Source of the DNA: Arthrobacter sp. RIT-PI-e
GTDB lineage: Bacteria > Actinomycetota > Actinomycetes > Actinomycetales > Micrococcaceae
Assembly (NCBI RefSeq): GCF_001187915.1
Contig: NZ_LGIU01000034.1
Span: 1-64,000 of the forward strand
Direction of reading: 5' to 3'
Length of the DNA stretch: 64,000 bases
The notes below the pieces were generated by a model. That model was not told where the DNA came from, did not search any database, and saw only the letters and a program-made list of their open reading frames with translations. Numbering within the stretch: position 1 is the first letter of the stretch; the number at the start of each line of letters is the position of its first letter. A program made the translations under genes and the position numbers. Below, in pieces: positions 1,198 through 21,140 of this stretch.

Positions 1198-1200
1198 GGG

Positions 1201-4698: not shown

Positions 4699-4701
4699 TC
4701 C

Positions 4702-5397: not shown

Positions 5398-5517
5398 GCC
5401 CTGCACAACCTCAGCGGGATCGGCCGCTATTCCCGCCCGGTTCCCGACCGGAGGCAGGATGCGCAACCGGCACCTTCGGGATGTCATCGCCGTGAACACC
5501 GGGCGTACCGTGGAGAG

Positions 5518-6981
5518 ATGAGCGCACCTCTCACCTCCAGGGTCACCTTCGACCACCGCTTCGCACGGGACCTCCCCGAGATGGCGGTTCCGTGGCAGGC
5601 GGAGAGCGCCCCCGAGCCACGGCTCCTCGCCCTCGACGAATCCCTCGCCGAGCAGCTCGGCCTCGACCCGGCGTTCCTCCGCTCCCCCGCGGGCCTGGCC
5701 CTGCTGACGGGCACCGCAGTGCCGGAGGGCGCGACGCCGGTGGCGCAGGCCTACTCCGGCCACCAGTTCGGCAGCTTCAACCCGGGCCTCGGCGACGGCC
5801 GGGCCCTGCTCCTCGGCGAGCTCACCGACACCGACGGGCAGCTCCGCGACCTGCACCTCAAGGGCTCGGGCCGCACCCCCTTCGCCCGGGGTGGCGACGG
5901 GCTCGCCGTCGTCGGCCCCATGCTCCGCGAGTACCTCGTCAGCGAGGCGATGCACGCCCTCGGCGTCCCCACCACCCGGGCGCTCGCCGTGGTGGCCACC
6001 GGCCGTGACGTGCGCCGGGAGACGCAACTGCCCGGCGCCGTGCTGGCGCGCGTGGCGAGCAGCCACCTCCGCGTGGGCAGCTTCCAGTTCGCCGCGGCCT
6101 CGGGCAACCGGGACCTTCTGACGCGCCTCGCCGATCACGCGATCGCCCGCCACCACCCCTCGATCGCCGGCGCCGACCGCCCGTACCTGGCACTGTTCCG
6201 CGCCGTGCTGTCGGCCCAGGCCGCGCTGGTGGCGCGGTGGATGCTCGTGGGGTTCGTGCACGGCGTGATGAATACGGACAACATGACCGTCTCGAGCGAG
6301 ACCATCGACTACGGCCCGTGCGCGTTCCTGGACAGGTTCGATTCCTCCGCCGTATTCAGTTCCATCGATCACGGTGGCCGGTACGCCTACGCGAATCAGC
6401 CGCTGGTGGCCGAGTGGAACCTCGCGCGCCTCGCCGAGACCCTGCTCCCGCTGATCGATACGGACCAGGAACAGGCCGTGAAGCTCGCCGTCGCGGCGCT
6501 GGAGGAGTTCCGCCCGCAGTACAGCGCCGCATGGCTGGCCGGGATGAAGGCGAAGCTGGGACTGCCCGACGACGTCGCGGACGAGATCGCCTCCCCGCTC
6601 GCCGACGACGTGCTCACCCTCCTGCAGGACAACCACGTGGACTACACGTCCTTCTTCCGCGGACTGGGGTCCGTGGTGCGCGGCGACGCGCGGCCGGCGC
6701 GGGACCAGGTGCTCGACGTCGCCGGCTTCGACGCCTGGGCCGAGCGCTGGCTGGCACTGCACCCGGACGCCGATGCGATGGACCGCGTGAACCCCGTGTA
6801 CATCCCGCGGAACCACCTCGTGGAGGAGGCACTGACCGCCGCGACGGCGGGGGACCTGGAGCCCCTGGAGCGCCTGCACGGCGTCCTGGCCCACCCGTTC
6901 GAGGAGCGCCCGGGCCTCGAGCGCTACGCTGCCGGGGCACCCGACGACTTCGGCGCGTACACGACGTACTGCGGGACCTGA
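5518..6981 (+). CDS. selO: Protein adenylyltransferase SelO
   Basis: The ATG at 5518 sits 121 nt downstream of the divergent DsbA-like start and gives 487 residues, the usual SelO (YdiU/UPF0061) length. SelO is a pseudokinase-fold enzyme that transfers AMP from ATP onto Ser/Thr/Tyr of target proteins, influencing redox homeostasis. Visible landmarks are the [18 protein letters not shown] segment, [16 protein letters not shown] (nucleotide loop), the catalytic-loop equivalent HGVMNTDNM, the metal-binding DYGPCAFLD, and a C-terminal TYCGT that places a cysteine where eukaryotic SelO carries selenocysteine. It is monocistronic and convergent with the glycosyltransferase gene. Confidence 0.95.
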
Positions 6982-7012
6982 AGCCGGTACCCAGCAGCCT
7001 TCCGCGTTGCGG

Positions 7013-9481
7013 CTACCGCACCCCTGCCCGACGACGGCGGTCGTTCCCGGAGCGCAGGTCCCGGTTGAGGCGGCGGTCGCCGTGGTACAGGATCGATGCC
7101 CAGTCGGCCTCCGCCGCCGTCTTCGCGACCACCTTGGACACCTCCACCTTCCTGACCCGCGGCTTCACGTACAGCCAGTTGAGGACACCGAGCCACATGT
7201 CCACCAGCGAGTCGGTGATGCCGATGTAGGCGCGGATGGCACCGGCCGCCAGGGTGGCGTTCAGCCCGGCGAAGGCGGCGTTGCCCCAGTTCTGCTCGGA
7301 CACGTCCCGCGCGAGCGTCAGCAGCGAGAAGATCACGATGGCGTACGGGATCACCACGTACAACCCGGGGGCGGCGGTGCGGTCCTTGACCTTCGGGGTG
7401 CGGACGAACGGGATCTTGTCCCCGGTGAACGCCTGCTGGATGGATTTCAGCACACCGGCGAGGTTGACCGGCAGTAGCACCAGGTTGAAGCCGTAGATCC
7501 GGAAGATGTCCGAGAACCGGTGCCCGCAGTCGCGCAGGTCGCTGCCCATCGCCAGGAAGTAGGGCGCCGCGGCGAGGAACACCACGGGGCTCAGGAGCCG
7601 GCTGTCGTACGGATAGGCGAGGAGGAACACGAGCCCGAAGCTCGCCCAGGCGATCGACGCCATGTAGTTCACGCGCAGCAGCACCTCGCGGACGAGGATC
7701 TGCTCACGCAGGTGACGCCGTCGGGCGAGCTGCACCCACAGTTTCGGCAGGATGAGCAGACCGCCGTTGGCCCAGCGGCGGCGCTGCACCACGAGGGACC
7801 CGAAGTCCGGTGGGGTGGCGCTGTAGCTCAGGCGCTCGGGGTAGTTCATGAGCGTCCAGCCGTGGGTGCCGAGGTCCACGCTGGACTCGGTGTCCTCGAT
7901 GACGGTGCGGTCCTGGATGTACGTCTTGACCTCGAAGCCGCCCACGTTCTCCACCTCCACGATGTCCTCCACCGCCCGCTTCCGGATCACGGCATTGGCC
8001 CCCACCCAGAACGTGGCGCCGTAGTAGGACATCCCCTGGTGCAGGATGTGCTGGATGTCCGTCGTCGCACCCGCCACCCGCTCGATGCGCGTGGGAGCAC
8101 CGCGGAAGGAGGAGTACGGCGTCTGGGTGACGGCGATCCGCTCGTTGCCCGGCGACTCCAGGAGGTACACGAGCCGCACGCAGTAGTCCCGCAGCAGCAG
8201 CGAATCGGCGTCGAGGGTGAGCAGGTAGGTGGAGTCGGGGACGTCGATGACGTCGTCGTCCCCCGTCCCCTCGCCGTCCGCGAAGGGACGCAGCACCGTG
8301 CCGGTGGCCACCTGCTCCCTCCGCCACCGCCGCCCCATCAGCGAGATGTAGGCGTTGAGGTTCATGGCCTTGTTGGCCTCGTGCGAGAGCGAGGCGTAGG
8401 CCTTGCGCTCGAACGTCTCCAACCGGGTGTTGAAGATCCGCACCAGCCGCACGTACAGCTCGCGGACGCGGTCCGGCTCCGGGCACTGCTCCTGGACCAG
8501 GGCCGCGTTCAGCGCGTACATGGTCAGGCGCAGTTCCCGGGCGAGCCCCATGACCACGAGGTCCACGAAGAACTCGTCCACGTGGTCCTCCACCTTCTCG
8601 GCGTCGGCCATGTCCTCGAGCCAGACGGCGGCGGACTCGTAGGCCGCGATCAGCGGCGGGTGGTCGCCGCGGGGGGGGGCGGGGTCCGCCGCCGCCGCGA
8701 GCCGTTCCTCGAAGGCGGCGAGTGCCCGGGTGGCCTGCGTGGAGGGTTCCAGGAGCGCCGACTCGATCTCGAGGCTCAGTGCCCGGGTGGCATCCAGCCG
8801 CTCCTTGACCACGGGATCGGTCGGGGACGGCGGGTCGTCGAGGAGGAGCACCACCCGGATGTCGGGGAACTCCTGCAGCGCCGCGGACCACAGCGTGGCA
8901 CGCACGACGGCGGGTTCCTCCGCATAGGAGGGCACCAGCACGGTGATGCCCTCGGCGTGGTGGGCGAAGTGCCGGTCCAGCTCGCCGCGCGGCACGCGCG
9001 TGTGGTCCCGGAACCGGTACAGCGCACCCTGGCGTGCCACCAGGTACAGCAGGGCCGAGAAGGTGAGGAACGTGACCACGATCAGGTAGGAGACCGCCTC
9101 GATCTGGAACCGGAACCCCGCATTCGGGTTGTCCGCGAACTGCCGCACGATCGTGGTGATGATGTAGGTGACCCAGGCGAGCACGGTGGTGACGATCGCG
9201 AGCCGACCGAGGGCGATCTTCCGCGAGGACGGCGTCGGGTGCACGATCGAGAGCGGTTCCGAACGCCGCTCCGCACCCCACTGCCGGCGCCGGGTGGACG
9301 CCGTCTCCGGCGCGGGGAGCTGGACGGGAGCACTGGTCCGCCGCCTCGGACCGCGCTTCACGGCGGACGGCCCGCCCGCCTCCGGGTGCACGGGGTCGAC
9401 GGCGGAGGACCCGTCGGGCGTCGTCCGACCGGCGGCGGGGGCACGCCGGGAGGACGGCGCGGTGGTGCGGTGTTTGGACAT
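7013..9481 (-). CDS. Processive family 2 glycosyltransferase (cellulose/chitin-synthase-like)
   Basis: The ATG at 9481 gives 822 residues. A disordered basic N-terminus (about 1-75) precedes two membrane segments, then a large cytosolic GT2 domain with VLVPSYAEE, the UDP-binding DDPPSP, LTLDADS (DxD-like), TVIEDTESS (catalytic ED) and the QRRRW motif typical of processive beta-glycan synthases. Several C-terminal membrane helices form the translocation channel. A long helical insertion lies between the DD and DAD motifs. The glycan (cellulose, chitin or another beta-glycan) cannot be decided. It is divergent from a GH18/CBM protein, suggesting polymer synthesis and trimming as a pair. No PilZ c-di-GMP domain is seen. 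Confidence 0.85.
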   Translation of the reverse strand: MSKHRTTAPSSRRAPAAGRTTPDGSSAVDPVHPEAGGPSAVKRGPRRRTSAPVQLPAPETASTRRRQWGAERRSEPLSIVHPTPSSRKIALGRLAIVTTVLAWVTYIITTIVRQFADNPNAGFRFQIEAVSYLIVVTFLTFSALLYLVARQGALYRFRDHTRVPRGELDRHFAHHAEGITVLVPSYAEEPAVVRATLWSAALQEFPDIRVVLLLDDPPSPTDPVVKERLDATRALSLEIESALLEPSTQATRALAAFEERLAAAADPAPPRGDHPPLIAAYESAAVWLEDMADAEKVEDHVDEFFVDLVVMGLARELRLTMYALNAALVQEQCPEPDRVRELYVRLVRIFNTRLETFERKAYASLSHEANKAMNLNAYISLMGRRWRREQVATGTVLRPFADGEGTGDDDVIDVPDSTYLLTLDADSLLLRDYCVRLVYLLESPGNERIAVTQTPYSSFRGAPTRIERVAGATTDIQHILHQGMSYYGATFWVGANAVIRKRAVEDIVEVENVGGFEVKTYIQDRTVIEDTESSVDLGTHGWTLMNYPERLSYSATPPDFGSLVVQRRRWANGGLLILPKLWVQLARRRHLREQILVREVLLRVNYMASIAWASFGLVFLLAYPYDSRLLSPVVFLAAAPYFLAMGSDLRDCGHRFSDIFRIYGFNLVLLPVNLAGVLKSIQQAFTGDKIPFVRTPKVKDRTAAPGLYVVIPYAIVIFSLLTLARDVSEQNWGNAAFAGLNATLAAGAIRAYIGITDSLVDMWLGVLNWLYVKPRVRKVEVSKVVAKTAAEADWASILYHGDRRLNRDLRSGNDRRRRAGVR

Positions 9482-9684
9482 GGCTACCCAGCAGTTGACG
9501 GACACGTTCCGGCCGGGGCCCACCCCATGCGGGGACCCGGTGTCGTGCGCAACTCTCGGCACCCGGGACGCCACCCGTTAGGCATTGCGGACGGGGGCAA
9601 CCCCAGTAGCATTGAGCCTCGAGCAGCTTCTCGCGGTCTCAAGCGCATCGGCTCCGCTGCTCCCACACCGATCTGGGGTTCTCC

Positions 9685-11250
9685 GTGTCTGCACGCTTTC
9701 CCGGCAGGAAACTGTCCGTCCTCCGCCTCACCGTCCTCGCCGTCGTCGTCGGCGTGGCCGGCTACAGCATGCTGTTCGGGTGGAACCGGTACGAGGACGC
9801 CCGCGCGGCCGAGAGCACCGGTGCGTTCTTCGCCGGGTACGTGGACGTCACCGCGACGCCCACGTACGCCTTCGAGGACCCCGCGGTGCAGACGGGAGGG
9901 TCCGTGATGCTCTCCTTCATCGTGGCCGACGCCGAGCGGCCCTGCGTCCCGTCCTGGGGCACCTACTACACCCTGGACCAGGCCGAGTCCGCACTGGACC
10001 TCGACCGCCGGGTGGCACGCCTGGTGCAGGACGGCGGGGAGGTCACCGTCTCCTTCGGCGGCCTGCTGAACGACGAGCTGGGCACCGCCTGCACCGATCC
10101 CGACGCTCTGCAGGACGCCTACGCCGCCGTCGTGGACCGCTACCGGTTGAGCACGGTGGACCTCGACATCGAGGGCGAGAACCTCAAGGACGTGGAGGCC
10201 GGCGAGCGCCGCGCGGAGGCGATGGCCGCGCTGCAGGCCGAGCGTGCCGGCACGGACCGCCCGCTGAACGTGTGGCTCACCCTGCCGGTGGCCCCCACCG
10301 GGCTGACGGCGGACGGCACCGCGGCCGTGGCGCAGTTCCTGGCCGCCGGGGTGGACCTCGCCGGGGTGAACGTGATGACCATGGACTACGGCGGCAGCCG
10401 CACGGAGGGCATGAGCATGCTCACCGCGTCGCAGAACGCGGCCGAGGCCACGCACCGGCAGCTCCAGGTGCTGTACCAGCGGGCGGGCCAGGACATCGGT
10501 CCGCAGGCCGCGTGGCGGAAGATCGGGATCACCCCGATGATCGGGCAGAACGACGTCAAGGGCGAGGTGTTCACCCTCGACGACGCCGTCGCGTTCAACG
10601 CCTTCGCCCTGGAGCGCGGCGCCGGACGCATGTCCATGTGGTCCCTCAACCGCGACGCCACCTGCAGCCAGAACTACGCGGACACCACCGTGGTCTCGGA
10701 CTCCTGCAGCGGCATCGACCAGCAGGGCCTGGCGTTCGCGCCGATCCTGGGGGCGGACTTCGAGGGCCGCGCCGCCACCCTCTCCGACGAGCCGCTGGTC
10801 GAGGAGACTCCCGAGGCCCTCGTGGAGGACGATCCCGAGACCAGCCCGTACCCGATCTGGTCCGACGTCGGCACCTACCGCACGGAGGACCGCGTGGTGT
10901 GGCACGGCAACGTGTACGTGGCGAAGTACTGGACCCAGGGCGACGTCCCGGACAACCCCGTGCTGCAGGCGGAGGAGACGCCGTGGACGCTGCTGGGACC
11001 GGTGCTGCCGAACGAGCGGCCCGTCCCCGTGGTCACCGCCCCCGCCGGGCTCTACCCCGAGTGGGATCCGGAGACGGTGTACGGGCGGGGCGACCGCATC
11101 CTCGTGGACGGGCGCGTGTACGAGGCGAAGTGGTGGAGCCAGCGCGACAGCCCCGAGGCGGCGGAGCAGGGCTCGGACGCCTCGCCCTGGATGAAGCTCG
11201 ACGACGCCGCCCTGGTGAAGCTCCTCGGGACGGAGCCGGAGGAGGGCTGA
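9685..11250 (+). CDS. Membrane-anchored GH18 protein with two chitin-binding-like modules
   Basis: GTG start at 9685; 521 residues. One N-terminal signal-anchor helix (about 12-32) is followed by a GH18 chitinase-like TIM barrel (about 45-340). The barrel shows VTVSFGG and the catalytic strand VDLDIEG, with the acid/base Glu, although the first Asp of the DxxDxDxE consensus is replaced. MTMDYGG and MSMWSLNRD are also present. Two C-terminal CBM5/12-like modules follow (about 400-440 and 465-510), each with paired aromatics (YVAKYW; YEAKWW). It is probably exported and tethered, acting on a beta-1,4-GlcNAc-type or related polymer. Its divergent pairing with the GT2 synthase suggests trimming of that polymer. 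Confidence 0.85.
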   Translation: MSARFPGRKLSVLRLTVLAVVVGVAGYSMLFGWNRYEDARAAESTGAFFAGYVDVTATPTYAFEDPAVQTGGSVMLSFIVADAERPCVPSWGTYYTLDQAESALDLDRRVARLVQDGGEVTVSFGGLLNDELGTACTDPDALQDAYAAVVDRYRLSTVDLDIEGENLKDVEAGERRAEAMAALQAERAGTDRPLNVWLTLPVAPTGLTADGTAAVAQFLAAGVDLAGVNVMTMDYGGSRTEGMSMLTASQNAAEATHRQLQVLYQRAGQDIGPQAAWRKIGITPMIGQNDVKGEVFTLDDAVAFNAFALERGAGRMSMWSLNRDATCSQNYADTTVVSDSCSGIDQQGLAFAPILGADFEGRAATLSDEPLVEETPEALVEDDPETSPYPIWSDVGTYRTEDRVVWHGNVYVAKYWTQGDVPDNPVLQAEETPWTLLGPVLPNERPVPVVTAPAGLYPEWDPETVYGRGDRILVDGRVYEAKWWSQRDSPEAAEQGSDASPWMKLDDAALVKLLGTEPEEG

Positions 11251-11273
11251 GGGGCCCGGGTTCCCGGGGCCCT
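11251..11273 (+). terminator. Terminator after the GH18 gene
   Basis: Immediately after the TGA (11248-11250), GGGCCCGG folds onto CCGGGGCCC with a single bulged G, giving a very stable GC hairpin. It lies between convergent genes and could act in both directions. Confidence 0.5.
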
Positions 11274-11356
11274 GGATCTGCTCGAGCTGCCCTTCGGGTT
11301 CCTGTCCGTCGCCGACCGCCGACCCGTGGAGGCGGGGCCGGACGTCGTCACGCTGC

Positions 11357-12862
11357 TCAGGCCGCGTCCCAGGGGTTCTCGATCCCGACGTACTGCAGGG
11401 TGGTGTACTCCGCGATGCCCTCGGCACCACCCTCACGGCCGATGCCGGACTGCTTCACTCCCCCGAACGGGGCGGCGGCGTTGGAGATCACGCCGACATT
11501 CAACCCCATCAGGCCGAACTCGATGCGGTCACCGATCCGTAGCCCGCGCGAGATGTTCTCCGTGAAGACGTAGGAGGCCAGTCCGTACTCGGTGGAGTTC
11601 GCCAGTTCCACGGCCTCGTCCTCGGTGGCGAAGGTGATCACCGGTGCCACGGGGCCGAAGACCTCCTCGCGGATCACGCGGGCGTCCCTGGACACGTTCG
11701 TCAGCAGGGTGGGCTGGAAGAAGTACCCCGGTCCGTTCACACGCGACCCGCCGACCACCACTCTCGCCCCGCCGTCCACGGCCTCCTTCACGAACTCCTC
11801 CACGGAGTCCCGTGCCTTCGCCTCCACGAGGGGGCCCACGTCCACTCCCTCGCGCGTCCCGTCGCCGACGGTGAGGGCGGACATCCGCGCGGCCAGCTCG
11901 GTCACGAACTCCTCCGCGACGTCCTCGTGGACGAGGAGCCGGTTGGCCGCCGTGCACGCCTCACCCATGTTGCGCATCTTGGCCGCCATGGCGCCCGCGA
12001 CGGCCTTGTCGATGTCCGCGTCCTCGAAGACGATCAGGGGACCGTTCCCACCGAGTTCCATGGAGGTCCGCAGCACGTTGTCGGTGGCGAGCTTCATCAG
12101 CTGCTTGCCCACCGGCGTGGAGCCCGTGAAGGAGATCTTCCGCAGGCGCGGGTCCGCCAGGATCGGTTCGGAGACGTTCCCAGCCGACGCCGACGCCACG
12201 ACGTTGAGCACCCCGGGCGGCAGACCGGCGTCGATCATGAGCTGCGCGAAGTACTGCGAGGTGAGCGGCGTGAGGCGGGCCGGCTTCAACACCATGGTGC
12301 AGCCTGCCGCAACGGCCGGGGCCACCTTGCGGGCGGCCATCGCCAGCGGGAAGTTCCACGGGGTGATGAGCAGGCACGGACCCACCGGCTTACGTTTCAC
12401 GAGCATGCGCAGGGTTCCCTCGGGGGCCTCGCTGTCCCGGCCGTAGCCACGGCCGGCCTCCTCGGAGACCCCCCGCAGGACCCCCCCGCCGTACTTCACT
12501 TCGCCGAGTGCTTCCGGGAACGGCTTGCCCATCTCCAGGGTCATCAGCAGCGCGAGGTCCTCGGCCCGTTCCTGGACGAGGTCGAAGGCCCGGCGGAGGA
12601 TCTCCGACCGGGACCGGGACGAGGTCCGCGCCCAGTATTCCTGGGCGTCCGCGGCGGCATCCATCGCGGCCTGCGCATCCTCGCGGGTGGCCGAGGCCAG
12701 TGTGGCCAGCACCTCACCGGTGGCCGGGTTCTCGACGTCGAAGGTGCCGCCGTCCGAGGCCTCCCGCCAGTGCCCCCCGATGAGGAGTCCGGTGGGGGTT
12801 CGCTGCAGGACGCCATCGATCCTCGTGCCGAGCGTGGATGCGTCGAGGGTGGTGCTGCTCAT
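11357..12862 (-). CDS. gabD: Succinate-semialdehyde dehydrogenase (NAD(P)+)
   Basis: The 501-aa aldehyde dehydrogenase has the GabD-type sequence: TPWNFPLAM, FTGSTPVGKQ (Rossmann loop), the general-base glutamate in SMELGGNGP, the catalytic cysteine in GEACTAANR and EVFGPVAPV near the end. It oxidises succinate semialdehyde to succinate for entry into the TCA cycle. GGAAGAG lies 8 nt before the ATG. It is the last gene of a minus-strand unit with the BCCT transporter and flavin reductase (69- and 52-nt gaps), so here it probably completes the catabolic route encoded by the island rather than GABA catabolism; no GABA transaminase is present. Confidence 0.88.
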   Translation of the reverse strand: MSSTTLDASTLGTRIDGVLQRTPTGLLIGGHWREASDGGTFDVENPATGEVLATLASATREDAQAAMDAAADAQEYWARTSSRSRSEILRRAFDLVQERAEDLALLMTLEMGKPFPEALGEVKYGGGVLRGVSEEAGRGYGRDSEAPEGTLRMLVKRKPVGPCLLITPWNFPLAMAARKVAPAVAAGCTMVLKPARLTPLTSQYFAQLMIDAGLPPGVLNVVASASAGNVSEPILADPRLRKISFTGSTPVGKQLMKLATDNVLRTSMELGGNGPLIVFEDADIDKAVAGAMAAKMRNMGEACTAANRLLVHEDVAEEFVTELAARMSALTVGDGTREGVDVGPLVEAKARDSVEEFVKEAVDGGARVVVGGSRVNGPGYFFQPTLLTNVSRDARVIREEVFGPVAPVITFATEDEAVELANSTEYGLASYVFTENISRGLRIGDRIEFGLMGLNVGVISNAAAPFGGVKQSGIGREGGAEGIAEYTTLQYVGIENPWDAA

Positions 12863-12931
12863 ATGTGGGTCTCTTCCGTTCGTGGAGTCGCTGGGACGAG
12901 GGCCGGGGATCTTGTCGGGGAGCAGGACGCC

Positions 12932-14533
12932 TCAGCCGTCGTGGGTGCTCGAGGTCCGCCGGGGGATGTCATTGAGCCGGGCCCGGCGCAGGGGCTGGAA
13001 CTCCGGGTCCTGGCGCAGCTCCAGGATCAGGGAGATCCCGAGGATCGCCACGATGATCGTGAAGGGCAGCGCCGACAGTATCGCCGCCTGCTGCAGCGCG
13101 ACGAGCCCGCCGAGCGCGAGGAGGAACACCGCGCAGACACCGGTGAGCACACCCCACAGGGTCAGGACGGGTTTGGTGGGGTTCAGCGTGCCCTTCGAGG
13201 AGAGCATGCTCAGCACGTAGGTGTTCGCGTCGGCACCGGAGATGAAGAACAGGGCCACCAGGATCACCGTCAGCACCGCCGTGGCCTGGGTCAGCGGTAG
13301 CTGGTCGAGCATCGCGAAGAAGGCGGAGTTGATGTTGGCGGTGGTCGCCTCGCCGATGTTCGCGCCCTGCATGTCCATGCTGATGGCCGAGCCGCCGAAG
13401 ATGGTGAACCAGGCGAAGAACACCAGGCTCGGAACCACGAGCACACCGGTGACGAACTGGCGGACGGTGCGGCCCTTGGAGATCTTCGCGAGGAACACGC
13501 CGACGAAGGCACCCCAGCTGAGCCACCACGCCATCATGAAGTAGGTCCACCACTGCATCCACTGGAGGTCGTCGGGTGTCGAGGGCGTGGTCAGGCTCGT
13601 GGTGAAGAACTCGGTGGCGTACTGGCCCACCGAGCGGAAGAAGAGATTGGTGATGAAGTTCGTGGGACCTGCGACGAACACGTAGACCGCCAGCAGCGCC
13701 GAGAGTCCCATGGTGATCTCGCTGATGTACTTGATGCCCTTGTCCACCCCGGAGAGCGCCGAGAGGGTGAAGAGAATCGTGATCACGGCGATGATGACGA
13801 TCTGCGTGAACAGGGTATTGGGTAGGCCGACGATGCGGCTCAGGCCCTCGGCGATCTGCGACGAGCCGAGGCCGAGGGACGTGGTGGTGCCGAACAGCGT
13901 GGCGATGATCGCGAAGACGTCGATCGCCTTGCCCACCCAGCCGTCCACGAGCTTGCCGAGAACCGGGCGGAGCATCGGGGACACGAGCCCCGGGCGGCCC
14001 TTGCGATGCGTGGAGTACCCGATGGCCAGGCCGAACACACCGAACACCGCCCACGCGTGGAGTCCCCAGTCGAAGAAGCTGTACTGCATGGCCAGGACCG
14101 CCGCGTCCATGGTCTCGGGCTCGGCGAGCGCATGCGGGGGAGCCATGAAGTGGGACATCGGCTCGGCGACGCCGTAACTGATCAGCCCCACCCCCATGAC
14201 CGCCGAGAGGATCATGGCCAGCCAGGCCCAGGTGCTGAATTCGGGTGGTTCGTTGTCCGTGCCCAACCGGATGCTGCCGTACCGGCTGAACGCCAGGTAG
14301 AGCAGCAGACCGATGCTGAGCAGTGTCACGATCAGGTAGCTCCACCCGACCGAACCCGTGGTCCAGTCGATCGTCGCCGTCATGGTGCTGTTCAGCGATT
14401 CCGGGGACAGCGCGGCCCAGAGCACGAAGGCCACGATGAAGGCGATCGACGCGATGAACACCGCCCCGGGCCGGGTGCTCGGCGTGTATCTGCGCGACCG
14501 CGTCGAGGCTGGTTTGTCGAGATGCTGGACCAC
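12932..14533 (-). CDS. BCCT family betaine/choline/carnitine-type transporter
   Basis: GTG start, 533 residues, 12 predicted membrane helices. The BCCT signature is clear in the segment with WWTYFMMAWWLSWGAFVG and AKISKGRTVRQF, and the N-terminal GVGLISYGVAEPM is characteristic. BCCT carriers import zwitterionic quaternary-ammonium compounds (glycine betaine, choline, carnitine) by Na+ or H+ symport. The tail is short, without an obvious long osmosensory domain, so a nutritional rather than osmotic role is likely. The placement between a flavin reductase and a succinate-semialdehyde dehydrogenase suggests that it brings in the substrate of the island, plausibly an N-methylpyridinium betaine such as trigonelline. 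Confidence 0.9.
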   Translation of the reverse strand: MVQHLDKPASTRSRRYTPSTRPGAVFIASIAFIVAFVLWAALSPESLNSTMTATIDWTTGSVGWSYLIVTLLSIGLLLYLAFSRYGSIRLGTDNEPPEFSTWAWLAMILSAVMGVGLISYGVAEPMSHFMAPPHALAEPETMDAAVLAMQYSFFDWGLHAWAVFGVFGLAIGYSTHRKGRPGLVSPMLRPVLGKLVDGWVGKAIDVFAIIATLFGTTTSLGLGSSQIAEGLSRIVGLPNTLFTQIVIIAVITILFTLSALSGVDKGIKYISEITMGLSALLAVYVFVAGPTNFITNLFFRSVGQYATEFFTTSLTTPSTPDDLQWMQWWTYFMMAWWLSWGAFVGVFLAKISKGRTVRQFVTGVLVVPSLVFFAWFTIFGGSAISMDMQGANIGEATTANINSAFFAMLDQLPLTQATAVLTVILVALFFISGADANTYVLSMLSSKGTLNPTKPVLTLWGVLTGVCAVFLLALGGLVALQQAAILSALPFTIIVAILGISLILELRQDPEFQPLRRARLNDIPRRTSSTHDG

Positions 14534-14585
14534 GGGTTTCTCCGGTTTCTCTGACGAGGAGGGTGGACTTACTGCTGGGGATGGA

Positions 14586-15530
14586 TCACAGCTGCGTGAG
14601 GTCGTCGCTGTCGTAGAAACGGCCGGCCTTGTAGATGATGGGGGATGCCTCGACGACCTCGGCGTGCCGGACCCGGCAGATGAACACGGTGTGGGTCTTC
14701 GCCTGGAACCGCTCGCGGATCTCGGCCTCCAGCGAGGCCGGCGAGCCGTCGATCAGCGGGCTGCCGTTCGGGGCTGCGTGCCAGTCGACCTCCGCGAACT
14801 TGTCGGGGGTCTTGGAGGCGAAGGTCGCGATGGTCTCCCGCTGGTTCGTCCCCAGGATGTTGATGCCCAGATGGGTGGCCGCGAACAGGGCCGGGTAGGT
14901 GGAGGAGGTCTTCTGGATGCACACCATGACCAGGGGTGGTTCCAGCGAGACGGAGGCATAGGAGTTGACCGCCAGACCCCGCGGCGTGTCGCCGTCCTGG
15001 GTGGTCACCACGGTCACGCCGGTGATGAACTGGCGGTTGAAGGTCTTCATCACCTGCGGGTCGGGGTCGCCCGAGAAGTCCTCGACGGTCACCTCGGGCG
15101 GGGTCGAGGGCGTGTCGCTGAGGTGGCGGACCCCCAGACTGTGGAGCAGCTCGGAGCCGTCCCAGGTGACCTCCTCCCGGGCGATCCTGCCACCCACCAG
15201 GTTCGCGTGGTTGCAGCCACGGGTCTGGACCCGACGGTTCGTGGGCGGTACACCGAGGAAGTTCTCCGTATGGGTTCCCGTGGACGTCCAGAAGATCGCC
15301 GCCTGATCACCCTCGACGACCACCGCGTCGATGGTGGTCACCAGGTCGGGGAACCCGGAGCGGATGGCGGTGATCTCACCCTGCAGGTCCGCCAGGGTGG
15401 AGCTGTTCCCGCTGGAACGGCTGACACGTACGTACTCGGGGGTGACGATCGACGCCAGGGCACCCACGTCGCCGTGGTCCCAAGCAGCTTGCCAGGTGGA
15501 ATCAAGAGTCTCTTGGAAGGTCTGTTGCAT
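14586..15530 (-). CDS. SnoaL-like domain fused to flavin reductase
   Basis: The ATG at 15530 gives 314 residues. Residues 1 to about 135 form a SnoaL/NTF2-like ester-cyclase fold (TWQAAWDHGDV, WTSTGTHTENFLG). From about 150 to the end is a FMN/FAD reductase domain of the HpaC/DIM6 type (FNRQFITGVTVVTT, GLAVNSYASVSLEPPLVMVCI, FICRVRHAEVV). The reductase should supply reduced flavin to the LLM monooxygenase at 20100. The fusion is unusual; the cyclase-like part could act on the ring-cleavage product or only aid assembly. No Shine-Dalgarno sequence precedes the ATG. An in-frame upstream start exists 10 codons earlier but is not supported. It heads the minus-strand arm of the island. Confidence 0.85.
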   Translation of the reverse strand: MQQTFQETLDSTWQAAWDHGDVGALASIVTPEYVRVSRSSGNSSTLADLQGEITAIRSGFPDLVTTIDAVVVEGDQAAIFWTSTGTHTENFLGVPPTNRRVQTRGCNHANLVGGRIAREEVTWDGSELLHSLGVRHLSDTPSTPPEVTVEDFSGDPDPQVMKTFNRQFITGVTVVTTQDGDTPRGLAVNSYASVSLEPPLVMVCIQKTSSTYPALFAATHLGINILGTNQRETIATFASKTPDKFAEVDWHAAPNGSPLIDGSPASLEAEIRERFQAKTHTVFICRVRHAEVVEASPIIYKAGRFYDSDDLTQL

Positions 15531-15671
15531 GGTAGTGAACGTAATCCAGATCACAATCAACTACAAGGGATATGGAGAAAAGTTTTTCCAGGTGGCCATA
15601 AAGGCTGACCCTCTTACGGTTCTTGACGATCACCACGCTCGCCGTCTAGCGTTCGTTGCATGCAACAGACC
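15519..15671. promoter_or_regulatory. Divergent control region with inverted 12-nt start-codon repeats
   Basis: Both divergent genes begin with the same 12 bases, ATGCAACAGACC, which appear as an inverted repeat at 15519-15530 and 15660-15671 around a 129-nt intergenic region. At the GntR start they form a perfect palindrome GTTGCATGCAAC (15655-15666). These are good candidates for binding sites of the adjacent GntR regulator. The intergenic core is AT-richer than its surroundings. Confidence 0.45.
15623..15650 (+). promoter_or_regulatory. Candidate promoter of the GntR gene
   Basis: TTGACG (15623-15628) and a weak -10-like TCTAGC (15645-15650), 16 nt apart, would place transcription start close to the A of the ATG at 15660. 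That agrees with the absence of a Shine-Dalgarno sequence and suggests a leaderless mRNA. The palindrome around the start codon would overlap the initiation site. Confidence 0.3.
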
Positions 15672-16352
15672 GAAAACTTCAAGGACGATGAAGTGATCGA
15701 TGACCTGCCACTGCTCGACCGGGTACGGCAGCTCGTCCTCAGCGGCAGCTTCTCACCGGGTGCACCACTCTCGGAGGTCTTCCTCTCCCAGGCCTTCGAG
15801 GTGAGCCGCACCCCGATCCGCGAGACGCTGAAACAACTGCAGCACGAGGGGCTCGTGGACATCCGCCCGAAGGTCGGCACCTTCATCCGGGAACCCACCC
15901 GGAGGGAGATTGTGGAGCTCTTCCAGATCAAGGAGAGCCTGGAAGGCCTCGCCGCGGGCCTCCTGGCCCGCCGCGGCCCCGTACCGGAACTGGATGTCCT
16001 CGAGCACAACATCGAGGAGTCGGACCGGGCGACGTCCGCGGAGGACGCCGTCCGGTACGCGGAGCTCGTCCACGAGTTCCACCGCACCATCATCACCGGA
16101 GCCGACAACTCCAAGCTGGTGGAGCACTACGACCGTCTGATGAACCAGCTCGCCTACCATCGGCTCGTCCTCCGGACCGCCGAGCACCCGGGCCGGATCA
16201 AGGCGTCCACCAGCGAGCACCGGGTGGTGCTGAGCATGCTGCGGGACAAGGACAGTTTCGGAGCCGAAGCCGCGATGCGGAACCATGTCCACGCCTCGGC
16301 ACGTGAGGTCCTCACCGACGCCCGCACGGCCCCGGTGCAGCTGCACACCTGA
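15660..16352 (+). CDS. GntR family regulator, FCD (FadR/VanR) type
   Basis: 230 residues. The N-terminal winged helix (about 15-75) contains the diagnostic FEVSRTPIRETLKQLQHEGLV. The C-terminal all-helical FCD ligand domain (about 85-220) has metal-binding-type residues in HEFHRTI, SEHRVVL and MRNHVHAS. Such regulators usually repress a neighbouring catabolic operon until a small organic acid or pathway metabolite binds. Its position at the centre of two divergent arms, with a terminator just behind it, suggests it controls the whole 11357-21140 island. A GTG at 15693 with AAGGA upstream is an alternative start, but it would cut into the domain. Confidence 0.9.
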   Translation: MQQTENFKDDEVIDDLPLLDRVRQLVLSGSFSPGAPLSEVFLSQAFEVSRTPIRETLKQLQHEGLVDIRPKVGTFIREPTRREIVELFQIKESLEGLAAGLLARRGPVPELDVLEHNIEESDRATSAEDAVRYAELVHEFHRTIITGADNSKLVEHYDRLMNQLAYHRLVLRTAEHPGRIKASTSEHRVVLSMLRDKDSFGAEAAMRNHVHASAREVLTDARTAPVQLHT

Positions 16353-16354
16353 TG

Positions 16355-16379
16355 CATCGGCCCCGGGGCGGGGCCGATG
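16355..16379 (+). terminator. Terminator/attenuator between GntR and DUF1185 genes
   Basis: CATCGGCCCC / GGGGCCGATG, a perfect 10-bp stem with a 5-nt loop, begins 2 nt after the GntR stop and ends 39 nt before the next start. It would limit read-through from the regulator into the catabolic genes, which may therefore have their own promoter or depend on partial read-through. Confidence 0.6.
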
Positions 16380-16418
16380 ACCGCACACCGTCACCACCCA
16401 GCATCGAAAGGGCCTGAC

Positions 16419-17051
16419 ATGACCCTCACCCCGCACGTGGCCGAACGGGTTCCCGGATCGGGCATCCGCAAGATCGTCTACTACCAGGAGGAGATCATCG
16501 CCGAGAACGGGAAGGGACCAGCCGCCTCGATCACGCGCGCGACCGTGGCGGCGGTGGTCCGCAACCCGTGGTCGGGCACCGGACCGGACACGGACCTCGC
16601 TGCGACCACGGAGTCCCTGGCCCCGCAGCTCGCCCTGGCCCTCACCGACCGGCTCCTCGAAGGGCTCGGCGGCGCGGACGCGGTCGAGGCCTTCGGCAAG
16701 GCCGCGATCGTGGGCACGGCAGGCGAGCTGGAGCACGCCGCCGCCCTGATCCACACCCCGTACTTCGGCAACCTGGTCCGCGAGTTCCTCGAGGGCACCT
16801 CCATCATCTGCTTCGCGGACGATCGCGCCGAGGCGGGTCAGCCGCTCGTGGTGCCCATGTGGCACAAGACCCACGCCGCCACCCGCAGCCACTACCAGAC
16901 CATCACCGCCCGGGTCGGCGACGGGCCGCGACCCGACGAGATCGTGGTGGTCGTCGCGGCTTCCACCGGCCCCCGGCCGCATCCCCGCATCGGGGACCGC
17001 AACACCGACCCCGCAGTCACCTCCACCATCCTCGAAGGAGCACCCGCATGA
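16419..17051 (+). CDS. DUF1185 (amino acid synthesis family) protein, copy A
   Basis: ATG at 16419 with GAAAGG 8 nt upstream; 210 residues. It belongs to the PF06684 family, annotated as amino acid synthesis although no reaction is established. Conserved family stretches are IRKIVYYQEE, VVRNPWSG, EAFGKAAIVGTAGELEH, LIHTPYFGN and RSHYQT near the end, with several His and Glu residues that could bind metal or substrate. The next gene encodes a paralogue sharing the same motifs, with which it overlaps by 4 nt, suggesting a hetero-oligomer. Located between the regulator and the hydrolase, it is likely a pathway component whose step is unknown. Confidence 0.85.
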   Translation: MTLTPHVAERVPGSGIRKIVYYQEEIIAENGKGPAASITRATVAAVVRNPWSGTGPDTDLAATTESLAPQLALALTDRLLEGLGGADAVEAFGKAAIVGTAGELEHAAALIHTPYFGNLVREFLEGTSIICFADDRAEAGQPLVVPMWHKTHAATRSHYQTITARVGDGPRPDEIVVVVAASTGPRPHPRIGDRNTDPAVTSTILEGAPA

Positions 17052-17599
17052 GCACACGGAAGATCGTCACCCTGGTCGAGGAGGTCCTCGCCGAGGGCGG
17101 ACGCCCGGTGGAACCGGCAGCACGCGTGGCCGTGGTCGCCGCGGTCATCGCCAACCCATGGGCCGGACAGGGCTTCGTCGAGGACCTGAACCCGGGCATC
17201 GAGGCCACGGCATCCGATGTCGGTGCGCTGCTGGCGGCGCGCGTGGTGGAAGCCCTCGGAGCACCCGTGGAGGCCTTCGGCAAGGCCGCGATCGTGGGGC
17301 TCGACGGCGAGATCGAGCACGGCTCGGCCCTCATCCACACCCTGAAGTTCGGGAACCACTTCCGGGACGCCGCCTCCGCCACCACACTGTTGCCGGCGGT
17401 GGAGAAGCGCGGACCCGCCGGAGTGACCTTCGACATCCCGCTCAAGCACATCACCGACGCGACCATCCGCTCCCACCACCAGAGCATCGAGGTACGCCTG
17501 GCCGACGCGCCGCACGCCGGGGAGATCGTGATCGCCCTCGCGGCAGCTGCCCAGGGGCGCCCCCAGCAACGCCTGGCCCCCCTGAGCAGCGAACAGTGA
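17048..17599 (+). CDS. DUF1185 (amino acid synthesis family) protein, copy B
   Basis: ATG overlaps the previous stop (ATGA); 183 residues. It is a paralogue of copy A, with RKIVTLVEEVL, VIANPWAG, EAFGKAAIVGLDGEIEH, ALIHTLKFGN and RSHHQS. It is shorter at both ends, and the central loop before PLKHIT differs. Tandem, translationally coupled paralogues are consistent with a heteromeric complex. No function can be assigned from the family. The catabolic setting makes a hydrolytic or isomerising role on a pathway intermediate conceivable, but this is inference. Confidence 0.85.
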   Translation: MSTRKIVTLVEEVLAEGGRPVEPAARVAVVAAVIANPWAGQGFVEDLNPGIEATASDVGALLAARVVEALGAPVEAFGKAAIVGLDGEIEHGSALIHTLKFGNHFRDAASATTLLPAVEKRGPAGVTFDIPLKHITDATIRSHHQSIEVRLADAPHAGEIVIALAAAAQGRPQQRLAPLSSEQ

Positions 17600-18354
17600 C
17601 CGAGTCCCAGCCCCTCCCGATCGTCCTCCTCCACGGTGTCGGGCTGGACCGGACCATGTGGGAGCCCGCGGAGACCGCGCTCGGGCAGCTCACGGACCGC
17701 ACGGTCGTCTCCCTCGACCTCCCCGGTCATGGCAGTGAACCAGCGCTCACCGCACCGGTCTCGCTGGAGGACCTCGCGGAGGACGTCGCCGGGCGGCTGC
17801 CGGGACGGTCCCACATCGTGGGGTTCTCGCTGGGTGCGCTGATCGCACAGCACCTGGCCGTGCACCGTCCGGATCTGGTCGCCTCCCTCGCCAGCGTGAG
17901 CTCCGTCTGCCGGCGCACGCCGGAGGAGTCCATGCAGGTGCGCCGGCGGCTCGACGCCGCGAGGTCGGACTTCCGTGGCAGCGTCGAGGCCTCGATCACC
18001 CGGTGGTACCCGGAGGGTCAGGGTGTCGACCGGCATCGGATCGAGCAGACACGCGCCACGCTCCTGGCCAACCCGGTGGAGTCCTACCTCCACGCCTACG
18101 AGGTGTTCGCCACCGCCGATACCGAGATCGGGACCGAGCTCCACCGGATCCGCGTGCCCTCCCTGGCTGTCACGGGTGAGTTCGATCCGGGCTCCACCCC
18201 GGAGATGACCCGTCGGCTCGAGGCAGCGATCCCGGGGACCCGGGCCGTCGTCGTCCCCGGTGCCCGTCACATGCTCCCCGTGGAGCAGCCGGACGAGCTG
18301 GCGCGCATCATCCACCACTTCATCACCGAACCGAATCGAGAAGATCATGGCTGA
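17596..18354 (+). CDS. Alpha/beta hydrolase (candidate enamide/formamide succinate hydrolase)
   Basis: GTG start overlapping the preceding stop (GTGA); 252 residues. It is an alpha/beta-hydrolase fold: oxyanion segment LLHGVG, nucleophile elbow GFSLGA (Ser about 77), acid in GEFDPG, catalytic His in GARHMLP. Known members include 3-oxoadipate enol-lactonases and (E)-2-(acetamidomethylene)succinate hydrolase of vitamin B6 catabolism. The latter reaction type (releasing amine, carboxylate, CO2 and succinate semialdehyde) is what a pyridinium ring-cleavage pathway needs before the GabD step. That assignment rests on context. It overlaps the aldehyde dehydrogenase start by 8 nt. Confidence 0.88.
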   Translation: MTESQPLPIVLLHGVGLDRTMWEPAETALGQLTDRTVVSLDLPGHGSEPALTAPVSLEDLAEDVAGRLPGRSHIVGFSLGALIAQHLAVHRPDLVASLASVSSVCRRTPEESMQVRRRLDAARSDFRGSVEASITRWYPEGQGVDRHRIEQTRATLLANPVESYLHAYEVFATADTEIGTELHRIRVPSLAVTGEFDPGSTPEMTRRLEAAIPGTRAVVVPGARHMLPVEQPDELARIIHHFITEPNREDHG

Positions 18355-19828
18355 GCGATACGACCACTTCATCGGCGGGCAGTACGTGGCACCCATCGAG
18401 GGCGAGTACTTCGAGAGCACCAACCCCGCCACGCTGGAGGTGCTCTACTCCGCCGCCCGCGGCACCTCGGCCGATGTCCATGCCGCCGTCACGGCTGCGG
18501 GCAGGGCCTTCGAGCACGCCTCCTGGCGTGACCTCTCCCCTACCCGGCGCGGGCATCTGCTCCGTCGCCTCGGTGACCTCATCGGCGAGAACGCCGAGGA
18601 ACTCGCACGCATGGAGTCCCGGGACAACGGCAAGCTGCTGCGGGAGATGCGCGGGCAACTGACCACCCTGCCCGAGTACCTGTACTACTACGCCGGGCTG
18701 GCCGACAAGGTCCAGGGCAGCCAGATCCCCACGAACTCCGTGTTCATGCTCAACTACACGCAGCGTGAGCCCCTCGGCGTGGTGGGTGCCATCACGCCGT
18801 GGAATTCACCGCTGACGCTGACCACCTCGAAATTGGCCCCGGCGCTCGCCGCCGGGAACACGGTGGTCATCAAACCCTCCGAGTACACCTCACGGACCGT
18901 GCTCCGCCTCGCCGAACTCGCCGTCGAGGCGGGCTTCCCCCACGGCGTCGTCAACGTGGTGAGCGGCTTCGGGGCGGAGGCCGGGGCCGCCCTCGTGGAC
19001 CACCCGGACATCGCGAAGATCTCGTTCACCGGATCCACCCTCACCGGATCCCGGATCGCGGCCTCGGCCGCCGCCCGCTTCATCGGCTGCACCCTGGAAC
19101 TCGGGGGCAAGAGCCCCAACATCGTCTTCGACGACGCGAACGTCGGCAATGCGGCGATGGGCGTGGTCGCGGGCATCTTCGCCGCCGCCGGCCAGACCTG
19201 CATCGCGGGAAGCCGCGTCTTCGCGCACCGCTCGGTCTACGACGAGCTGCTGGAACGCGTCGCGGAACGGGCACGGAGCATCGTGATCGGTGACCCGCTG
19301 CTGGACGAGACCGAGCTCGGCCCGCTGGCGTTCGAGGCGCAGCGGGACAAGGTCAGCTCCTACGTGGAGCTGGGCATCTCCGAGGGTGCCTCGGTGCTCA
19401 CCGGGGGGAACCGCCCCGACGTCGACCTCCCCGGCTACTTCTACTCGCCCACCGTCCTGACGGGGGTGGACAACTCCATGCGTGTCACCCGCGAGGAGAT
19501 CTTCGGCCCCGTGGCAGCGATCATGCCCTTCGACACGGAGGAGGAGGTGTTGCGGCTCGCCAACGACACCGACTACGGGCTCGCGGCCGGGGTGTGGACC
19601 CAGAACCTCGCCCGGGCGCACCGCATGAGTCGCCGGCTGGAGGCGGGCACGGTGTGGGTGAACACCTACCGGGCCATGTCACCGATGTCCCCGCGCCAGG
19701 GCTACAAGAGCAGCGGCGTGGGGATCGAGCACGGGCTGGAGTCGATGCACGAGTACACCCACCTCAAGAGCGTGTGGATCAACACGGACGAGGATCCGGT
19801 CGCGGACCCCTTCGTGATGCGCGGTTAG
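18347..19828 (+). CDS. NAD(P)+-dependent aldehyde dehydrogenase
   Basis: ATG at 18347 inside the end of the hydrolase gene; 493 residues, standard ALDH length. Motifs: TPWNSPLTL, FTGSTLTGS, general base in LELGGKSP, catalytic Cys in GQTCIAGSR and EEIFGPVAA. It differs clearly from the GabD at 11357, so the island carries two ALDHs for two successive oxidations. In the trigonelline scheme the first would convert the hydroxy-butyrolactone ring-cleavage product to the substituted methylene-succinate. The substrate is inferred only. Confidence 0.9.
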   Translation: MAERYDHFIGGQYVAPIEGEYFESTNPATLEVLYSAARGTSADVHAAVTAAGRAFEHASWRDLSPTRRGHLLRRLGDLIGENAEELARMESRDNGKLLREMRGQLTTLPEYLYYYAGLADKVQGSQIPTNSVFMLNYTQREPLGVVGAITPWNSPLTLTTSKLAPALAAGNTVVIKPSEYTSRTVLRLAELAVEAGFPHGVVNVVSGFGAEAGAALVDHPDIAKISFTGSTLTGSRIAASAAARFIGCTLELGGKSPNIVFDDANVGNAAMGVVAGIFAAAGQTCIAGSRVFAHRSVYDELLERVAERARSIVIGDPLLDETELGPLAFEAQRDKVSSYVELGISEGASVLTGGNRPDVDLPGYFYSPTVLTGVDNSMRVTREEIFGPVAAIMPFDTEEEVLRLANDTDYGLAAGVWTQNLARAHRMSRRLEAGTVWVNTYRAMSPMSPRQGYKSSGVGIEHGLESMHEYTHLKSVWINTDEDPVADPFVMRG

Positions 19829-19837
19829 GGATCAGCC

Positions 19838-20044
19838 GTGCCGCTCATCGACGTGTCCATCGCCGAGGGACGCAGCCCGGAACAGCTGCGCGCCCTCGTC
19901 TCCGCACTCCACCGCGCAGCGGAGGAGACGGTCGGCGCACTCCCGGAGAACACCACCGTGATCATCCGCGAGGTGCCCTCCACCCACTGGTCCAAGGCGG
20001 ACCGTACCATCGCGGAGCTCAGGACCGGGCCGGACCCGGCCTGA
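19838..20044 (+). CDS. Tautomerase family protein (4-oxalocrotonate tautomerase-like)
   Basis: GTG start; 68 residues. After removal of the initiator Met the chain begins with Pro (PLIDVSIAEG), the catalytic general base of the 4-OT/MIF superfamily. A beta-alpha-beta unit with RSPEQLRALVSALHRAA and NTTVIIREVP follows. Typical of short trimeric or hexameric tautomerases. It starts 9 nt after the aldehyde dehydrogenase and may isomerise an enol/enamine intermediate of the pathway. The reaction cannot be specified. Confidence 0.85.
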   Translation: MPLIDVSIAEGRSPEQLRALVSALHRAAEETVGALPENTTVIIREVPSTHWSKADRTIAELRTGPDPA

Positions 20045-20099
20045 CGTTCTCCGCACACGCGAACTTCACCATCTGCAACCACCACAGGAGGCACTACAC

Positions 20100-21140
20100 A
20101 TGCGATTCTCACTCTTCGCCCACATGGAACGCTGGGACGCCACCGTGGGTCACCGCGAACTCATGGAAAATCTCGTGGAGCTGGTCCAGCTCGCCGAGAA
20201 GGGCGGGTTCTCCACCGTCTGGACCGGCGAGCACCACGCCATGGAGTACACCGTCTCACCCAGTCCCATGCCCGTCCTGGCGTACCTCGCGGCGAAGACG
20301 GAGACCATCCGACTCGGCGCCGGTACGCTGATCGCCCCGTTCTGGAACCCGATCAGGGCCGCCGGGGAATCCGCGCTGGTGGACGTGATCAGCAACGGTC
20401 GGCTCGAGCTCGGCATAGCGCGTGGCGCCTACCAGTTCGAGTTCGACCGCCTCGCGGGCGGCATGCCGGCGGCCGAGGGCGGCAAGCACCTGCGTGAGTT
20501 GCTGCCCGCCATGCAGGCCCTCTGGCAGGGCGACTACGCGCACGAGGGCGAGATCTGGCAGTTCCCCACCTCCACCAGCGTGCCGAAGCCCGTCCAGGAG
20601 CAGATCCCCATCTGGGTGGCGGCGCGCTCCCCGGAGTCCCACGAGTTCGCGGTGGAGAACGGCTACAAGATCATGGTCACTCCCCTGATGAAGGACGACG
20701 CCGAGGTGGCGGACCTCACCGAGAAGACCAGGGACGCGGTGGCGAAGTTCCCCGGGGCGGAGAAGCCCGAGATCATGTGCCTGCGCCACACACACGTGCA
20801 CAGCGCCGACGACCCCGAGGGATGGCGCGACGCCGCAGCCGCCGTGAACCGCTACTACCGGACCTTCGATGCCTGGGCCGGGAACAGGACCACCCCCACG
20901 GACGGCTTCCTCGAACCCTCGCCCGAGGAGAAGTTCGCGGGCCGGGCGGAGTTCGAGCCGGAGAGCCTGCACCGGTCGGCGATGATCGGCACACCCGACG
21001 AGGTGATCGAGCGGATCAAGCACTACCAGGAGCTCGGCGTCGACGAGTTCGGTTACTGGATCGACAACAGCATGACGCACGAGCAGAAGAAGGCCTCACT
21101 GGAACTGTTCGTCGAGGAGGTCGTCCCGGCCTTCGCCTGA
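20100..21140 (+). CDS. LLM flavin-dependent monooxygenase (candidate ring-cleaving oxygenase)
   Basis: A strong AGGAGG precedes the ATG. 346 residues of the bacterial luciferase-like family: MRFSLFAHMERWD start, WTGEHHAMEY (EHH typical of the active-site loop), GAGTLIAPFWNP, GRLELGIARGAYQFEFDR and the C-terminal IGTPDEVIERIKHYQELGVDEF. It needs reduced FMN/FAD from a partner, and the flavin reductase at 14586 supplies one. It lies last in the plus-strand arm with its own strong ribosome-binding site. By analogy with two-component trigonelline and pyridine monooxygenases, it may open an N-heterocyclic ring directly without prior hydroxylation; this is inferred from the set of neighbours. Confidence 0.88.
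   Translation: MRFSLFAHMERWDATVGHRELMENLVELVQLAEKGGFSTVWTGEHHAMEYTVSPSPMPVLAYLAAKTETIRLGAGTLIAPFWNPIRAAGESALVDVISNGRLELGIARGAYQFEFDRLAGGMPAAEGGKHLRELLPAMQALWQGDYAHEGEIWQFPTSTSVPKPVQEQIPIWVAARSPESHEFAVENGYKIMVTPLMKDDAEVADLTEKTRDAVAKFPGAEKPEIMCLRHTHVHSADDPEGWRDAAAAVNRYYRTFDAWAGNRTTPTDGFLEPSPEEKFAGRAEFEPESLHRSAMIGTPDEVIERIKHYQELGVDEFGYWIDNSMTHEQKKASLELFVEEVVPAFA

Follow-up and report, generated by a model that had tools for sequence, protein, structure and literature searches.

A tgn-type gene island in Arthrobacter sp. RIT-PI-e, probably for catabolism of trigonelline or a close relative, and its actinobacterial sister clade

The closest described relative of the system considered here is the tgn cluster of Acinetobacter baylyi, which encodes TgnA-F and is reportedly responsible for trigonelline catabolism (the account is said to be that of Perchat et al. 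2018); the reaction scheme proposed below follows what this A. baylyi work is said to have established. We analyzed a 64-kb stretch of the genome of Arthrobacter sp. RIT-PI-e (contig NZ_LGIU01000034.1, positions 1 to 64,000, hereafter the window), in which ten genes between 11357 and 21140 form an island whose two arms diverge around a single GntR/FCD regulator. The cassette is related to the A. baylyi tgn cluster and belongs to an actinobacterial sister clade. We consider it probable, at about 0.72, that the island is a pair of tgn-type operons, in an actinobacterial version, by which trigonelline (N-methylnicotinate) or a closely similar N-methylpyridinium carboxylate is broken down. The tgn core itself is known; what is new is the actinobacterial variant, with its paired DUF1185 proteins, SnoaL-fused reductase and tautomerase, and in the limited collection of literature searched we found no description of an actinobacterial trigonelline cluster. 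Trigonelline is a common plant betaine, and if the reading is true it places trigonelline catabolism in the Micrococcaceae and a few other Actinomycetes and offers the DUF1185 pair, the SnoaL-reductase and the TgnA-type oxygenase as a marker set.

The arm on the minus strand consists of a fusion of a SnoaL domain and a flavin reductase domain (14586..15530, PF07366 + PF01613), a BCCT-family carrier (12932..14533) that is the probable importer of a zwitterionic substrate, and an aldehyde dehydrogenase (ALDH) resembling succinate-semialdehyde dehydrogenase (SSADH; 11357..12862, PF00171), the putative functional counterpart of TgnE. The plus-strand arm begins with the GntR/FCD transcriptional regulator (15660..16352, PF00392 + PF07729) and continues with two DUF1185/AA_synth proteins of TgnF-like subfamilies that we call AAS1 (16419..17051) and AAS2 (17048..17599), an alpha/beta hydrolase as candidate TgnD counterpart (17596..18354, PF12697/PF00561 within a longer frame, GFSLG nucleophile motif), an ALDH as candidate TgnC counterpart (18347..19828, PF00171, ELGG and GQTC motifs), a 4-oxalocrotonate-tautomerase-like protein with a GTG start and Pro-1 (19838..20044, PF01361), and a luciferase-like monooxygenase (LLM; 20100..21140, PF00296), predicted to be a TgnA-type ring-opening oxygenase. 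The two DUF1185 genes, the hydrolase gene and the ALDH gene overlap by a few bases in an operon-like manner. Every gene named in a sequence-only reading of this DNA was found at its coordinates and in its family, with a single GntR gene between the divergent arms. What that reading called a flavin reductase does contain the reductase domain, but the fused SnoaL domain had been overlooked; the start of this gene is most likely the ATG at 15530 and not the TTG at 15560, because the alignment with the Arthrobacter dokdonellae homolog begins at residue 1 of the protein started at 15530.

In A. baylyi DSM 14961, one stretch (L047) encodes a GntR regulator, a DUF1185 protein, a hydrolase, a flavin reductase, an LLM, an ALDH and an NCS1 permease, together with a porin-like protein (named by eye), an SSADH and a carboxymuconolactone-decarboxylase family protein. 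One source names the homologous DUF1185 protein of A. baylyi TgnF and cites the trigonelline paper there (PMC7913881), and the A. baylyi genome contains exactly one DUF1185 gene, which lies in L047; we therefore take L047 to be the tgn cluster. DUF1185 is thus already part of the known scheme, contrary to the earlier suggestion that the pair was an addition to it. The LLM of the window is 49% identical to that of L047 over 347 columns, and L047 is by far its best match in the A. baylyi genome (E 1.4e-115, about 50%, versus E 3e-29 and 31% for the second best). The other counterparts follow at 47% for the ALDH at 18347, 46% and 44% for the first and second DUF1185 proteins, 40% for the SSADH, and 39% over 140 residues for the reductase domain, whose domain architecture differs. 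The hydrolases share 30%, and that of L047 is again the best match in the genome (E 7.1e-29; next 1.4e-17), so that the pairwise comparison proposed earlier for oxygenase, ALDH and hydrolase finds a partner for each. The two clusters thus have in common a TgnA-type LLM, a TgnC-like ALDH, a TgnD-like hydrolase, DUF1185, a flavin reductase, a GntR regulator and an SSADH. They differ in that the window has two DUF1185 subfamilies, a tautomerase and a SnoaL domain ahead of the reductase, a BCCT in place of an NCS1 carrier, an SSADH nearer to paralogs of its host than to the tgn gene, and the gene order DUF1185, DUF1185, hydrolase, ALDH, tautomerase, LLM rather than DUF1185, hydrolase, reductase, LLM, ALDH.

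The phylogeny of the LLM supports this relationship. In a tree of 59 sequences selected from 143, with an arbitrary root, the window and other actinobacteria form a clade (clade B, support 0.999) that joins clade A with a support of 0.995, and clade C, with Agrobacterium fabrum, Azospirillum and others, lies outside. Clade A (0.923) contains proteobacteria, A. baylyi among them, plus three small-genome actinobacteria. The window's enzyme groups with that of A. baylyi and apart from the other LLMs in the tree; a placement with unrelated LLM clades, named beforehand as refuting the sequence-only reading, was not seen. A comparison of 87 clade A with 40 clade B LLMs by sequence alone (the latter including L137, a duplicate of L036) found 97 positions that are at least 95% conserved with the identical residue in both clades, and 10 that are conserved but differ, one of these being an insertion; 18 of the 97 shared positions are absent from all five clade C LLMs. 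The predicted model of the LLM (pLDDT, the predicted local distance difference test, 86.6) has as its five best solved folds the monooxygenases RslO1 and 2i7g followed by luciferases (Z 33.5-34.6), and RutA appears in the list with a lower Z (27.5); this comparison indicates a luciferase-like fold for the model, not a function. A placement with F420-dependent or alkanesulfonate LLMs was also considered and rejected, as every NCBIfam LLM subfamily among 25 of the 31 matches fell below its cut-off.

The cassette is strongly conserved within clade B, which we count as 39 loci including the window; the 38 others were counted over their whole stretches, some of which end early, and we left out L163 (an LLM alone), L137 (the same DNA as L036) and L182-L184 (on the proteobacterial side of the tree). 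All 38 encode the regulator, both DUF1185 proteins, the hydrolase, the ALDH, the SnoaL-reductase and the LLM. For comparison we took the 80 top-ranking of 575 confirmed relatives; the ranking was by similarity to an Acinetobacter protein, which makes this set proteobacterial by selection. Partners within 9 kb of the LLM, a limit that misses distant ones such as the SSADH of L036 and the reductase of L156, comprise an ALDH in 80/80, a hydrolase in 79/80, and a reductase and a DUF1185 protein in 78/80 each. This co-occurrence of cassette genes exceeds chance. The gene order of the window recurs in 34 of the 38 other clade B loci, and that of A. baylyi in 72 of the 80 proteobacterial ones. The SnoaL-reductase fusion is present in 39/39 clade B loci and in 0/80 of the proteobacterial set, the latter figure applying to these 80 alone. 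A tautomerase is encoded in 38 of the 39 loci, L179 being the exception, and the proline after the start and several further residues are invariant in all 38; it is indeed an addition to the known scheme, as had been suggested, albeit one that is nearly clade-wide.

The carriers are more variable. BCCT, NCS1 and ABC carrier types take up zwitterions or N-heterocycles, and the WW-x-SW motif marks BCCT carriers. The window's carrier matches PF02028 with 578.6 bits and has WWLSWGAF at residue 336; profile and motif thus agree with the earlier proposal of a BCCT carrier suited to zwitterion import. A BCCT carrier of at least 50% identity occurs in 26 of the 38 other clade B stretches and an NCS1 carrier of at least 60% in seven, one stretch having both, and in six the carrier matches are weaker (35-39%) or, in L148, absent; these counts depend on the chosen identity limits, and some stretches stop before the carrier. 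Around the same core, BCCT, NCS1 and ABC types interchange, as would be expected if the substrate were one small zwitterion.

Both DUF1185 proteins of the window pass PF06684 (189.9 and 202.5 bits, cut-off 27), and AAS1 and AAS2, with 39 members each, both split cleanly (0.998) from 78 proteobacterial DUF1185 proteins. Residues E90, H93 and R177 (A. baylyi numbering) are kept in both. The study of BB2672 (PMC2954203) names His93, Arg176 and Glu90 of that protein as highly conserved cavity residues and reports hexamers. Each subfamily has changed some residues that are kept by the other and by TgnF: AAS1 is altered at L101, A113 and G172, where AAS2 matches TgnF, and AAS2 is without the C-terminal RIGDR motif in its original form, I, G and R being changed. 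By analogy with the BB2672 hexamers, AAS1 and AAS2 could perhaps form a mixed oligomer. The split of DUF1185 into two co-conserved subfamilies makes its unsolved role testable.

The SSADH-like gene and the reductase appear to have histories of their own. The SSADH of the window scores 549.7 bits with TIGR01780, under the curated NCBIfam cut-off of 646.35, and is 68% and 65% identical to two paralogs elsewhere in its own genome. Since these are closer than the A. baylyi gene, it looks like a recruited copy and not clearly a TgnE. A close SSADH is found in two of the 38 other clade B stretches, L036 (68%) and L175 (86%), and a weak match in two more (35% and 29%). In Arthrobacter crystallopoietes pLDW-10 (L129), a SnoaL-reductase 51% identical to that of the window lies near a different LLM (28.7%) and an ALDH (39%), in a cluster at 1077-14948 that also encodes a NIPSNAP protein, an HAD phosphatase, a glutamine amidotransferase, a ribokinase, a PRPP synthetase, an amidohydrolase, two tautomerases and a nicotinate phosphoribosyltransferase; the 29 kb gave no match to DUF1185 or to the hydrolase. 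This cluster could be a pyridine-type pathway. Given such a reductase beside another LLM, the actinobacterial cassette appears to be a tgn core equipped with a reductase of the type found in another heterocycle pathway. Against an exchange of this kind counts the weak similarity of the L129 tautomerases to that of the window: one matches at 26% over 46 residues, and the other gives no match.

A putative operator lies between the two arms. The palindrome TTGCATGCAA at 15656..15665 is the only match to TTGYATRCAA in the window, and none of 100 shuffles had any; it overlaps the annotated start codon of the GntR gene. We counted the motif in 33 of 40 clade B loci, L137 included, leaving out L158 and L176-L181, which lack the divergent layout of reductase and regulator. 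It occurs 47 times in the 7,283 bp between these two genes (26 of the 33 loci) and five times in 600,315 bp elsewhere, and shuffles give an expectation of 0.04. The seven loci without an exact site each have at least one copy with one mismatch (0.7-3% of shuffles per locus). Several exact sites lie in non-coding sequence, and others overlap the conserved start ATGCAACAG of the reductase or the regulator, an overlap that inflates the count. A site near AAS1 is present in L181. A search for a 12-base operator with two mismatches was uninformative, with a chance mean of 1.02.

We favor the hypothesis that the island opens the ring of trigonelline, or of a very close N-methylpyridinium carboxylate, oxidatively. 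The oxidative opening of a trigonelline-like compound had already been put forward by the sequence-only reading, and the placement of the LLM in the tree, the shared core cassette and the BCCT carrier support it. The zwitterion would enter through the BCCT carrier, and the LLM would open its ring with O2 and reduced flavin mononucleotide (FMNH2), the latter provided by the SnoaL-fused reductase domain. The ALDH would then oxidize the ring-opened semialdehyde, the alpha/beta hydrolase would convert the N-methylformamido product to succinate semialdehyde, methylamine, formate and CO2, and the SSADH would yield succinate. The DUF1185 pair would correspond to TgnF divided between two subunits, which perhaps assemble into one hetero-oligomer that aids late steps, and the tautomerase and SnoaL domain may deal with enol or lactone isomers of the compound left by ring opening. 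Both arms are predicted to be controlled by the GntR/FCD protein through binding to TTGYATRCAA.

Several points weigh against this reading. L047 is identified as tgn through a secondary source, and the catabolic role of the actinobacterial members is assigned from their sequences. An LLM identity of 49% leaves room for a change of substrate, the hydrolase is just 30% identical, and the constant extras, namely the second DUF1185 protein, the SnoaL domain and nearly always the tautomerase, may mean another substrate. The SSADH is nearer to host paralogs than to the A. baylyi gene and has a close copy in only two of 38 clade B stretches. Finally, the lone operator-like site of the window coincides with an annotated start codon, and L175, the window's closest relative, has no exact copy of TTGYATRCAA. 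It is conceivable, although we consider it unlikely, that clade B applies the same chemistry to a different pyridinium or pyridine, such as a free pyridine carboxylate or some other N-methylpyridinium carboxylate, and that the tautomerase, SnoaL domain and DUF1185 pair carry out an extra isomerization. The separation of clade B (0.999) from the clade with the characterized members and its constant extra parts would fit such a change, and the L129 cluster, where the SnoaL-reductase accompanies a different LLM, an amidohydrolase and two tautomerases, suggests that such parts accompany a second type of pathway for heterocycles. However, the conserved LLM residues are mostly common with the TgnA clade (97 versus 10, with 18 of the 97 absent from clade C), and the carriers are of types known for the uptake of zwitterions or N-heterocycles. 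A rather unlikely variant of the same idea is that clade B is a hybrid in which a tgn core has acquired a module of SnoaL-reductase and tautomerase from another actinobacterial heterocycle pathway, of the kind seen on pLDW-10; its substrate would then be some pyridinium compound that is not trigonelline, and the two DUF1185 subfamilies would form an obligate hetero-oligomer that is a true enzyme of ring-fragment isomerization instead of a helper.

A pyridine pathway of the Arthrobacter 68b type (pyrA-E) would suit a host family that includes Arthrobacter, and its general set of enzyme types is similar. Yet we hold it to be very improbable: a BCCT carrier should be superfluous for free pyridine, the oxygenase is 49% identical to the A. 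baylyi enzyme, and the island has an alpha/beta hydrolase and DUF1185 proteins instead of an amidohydrolase, which we take PyrC, the third enzyme of that pathway, to be. No amidohydrolase family match was found among the scanned island genes. Least probable of all is homarine catabolism. Homarine is a betaine and an isomer of trigonelline that a BCCT could carry, but one source argues that steric hindrance at ring opening makes TgnA/TgnB unlikely to act on it, and reports that Ruegeria pomeroyi grows less effectively on homarine than on trigonelline (PMC8269262). Of the substrates listed earlier, trigonelline is favored and homarine less likely. The cassette is present in the Ruegeria relatives L075, L083, L091 and L095.

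The trigonelline reading also invites comparison with Sinorhizobium meliloti, where the same five-gene core lies on pSymA (L038) between nodL/noeB and nifT, in the nod-nif region. The trc region of this species is reportedly 9 kb long and about 4 kb from nifAB-fdxN (an account ascribed to Boivin et al. 1991). In L038 the core through the ABC genes covers 9.1 kb, and a distance of 3.6 kb separates its end from the gene of a small 4Fe-4S protein beside nifT, and the pSymA record CP073679 has an LLM homolog at one place only (E <= 1e-40). According to PMC4207669, wild-type S. meliloti grows on trigonelline and a strain without pSymA does not. The locus resembles the window in the five-gene core and in an SSADH match beyond the ABC genes, and differs in its ABC importer, NIPSNAP gene, single DUF1185 gene and reductase without a SnoaL fusion. 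The SSADH match (L038 18884-20276) is in two pieces in different frames in that record.

Among actinobacteria, Arthrobacter dokdonellae pDCT5 shares the two-armed layout of the window (LLM 71%, SSADH 68%) but has an NCS1 carrier of the cytosine-permease type, a riboflavin kinase and a NUDIX gene in place of the BCCT. A riboflavin kinase lies beside the cassette in L036 (5881-6830, plus a NUDIX gene) and L175 (near 3637), where it perhaps serves the flavin supply of the oxygenase. L182, L183 and L184 come from actinobacterial genomes of 1.6-1.8 Mb in one family and have a compact, proteobacteria-like cassette of DUF1185, hydrolase, LLM (49% identity) and ALDH. The LLM of L163 (G009) is 68% identical to that of the window and matched only from residue 38; the flanking 12 kb and 6 kb yielded no partner genes. 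The Agrobacterium fabrum-type clusters of clade C have an LLM (44.5%), ALDH, hydrolase, reductase and DUF1185 in common with the window but differ in their separate LLM clade and their helix-turn-helix-domain regulator, and unlike the window's BCCT the importers in A. fabrum and Azospirillum are ProXWV (betaine). They may represent a related pathway. The clade C LLM clusters with DUF1185 are the proteobacterial loci L041, L185, L187 and L188, and those of Mesorhizobium and R. phaseoli have amino-acid ABC importers. Sarcosine-oxidase-like genes lie near the tgn cassette in L047 (308-6412, named by eye, preceded by a FolD-like gene), and such matches occur near the cassette in L045, L046, L050, L069, L109, L111 and L112 as well; possibly they encode an N-methylglutamate dehydrogenase for the released methylamine. 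The window's own genome has a copper amine oxidase match in two overlapping frames (G000 C50 77958-79171; L194, L195).

The distribution of the island is patchy. Own genome counted, the LLM occurs in 33 of 245 sampled genomes of the family (12 of 32 genera), in 11 of 394 of the class and in two of 38 of the genus. The other LLM-bearing member of the genus has 11365-21134 in common with the window at about 81-85% and no common flank in 4-5 kb on each side; the left-flank gene pair is on a different contig there, and the left-flank gene is found in 26 of the 38 genus members. Given its rarity in the genus and its unshared flanks, the island is accessory and was probably transferred. A clean empty site could not be demonstrated among the five relatives compared. 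The left-flank pair (7013-11225) is collinear in all five and the next common block (at 42.7 kb in the window) in three, where no more than about 7-11 kb separate it from that pair. The approximately 31 kb of the window between these collinear blocks (11225-42705) differ from the relatives, and the island is situated at their left edge.

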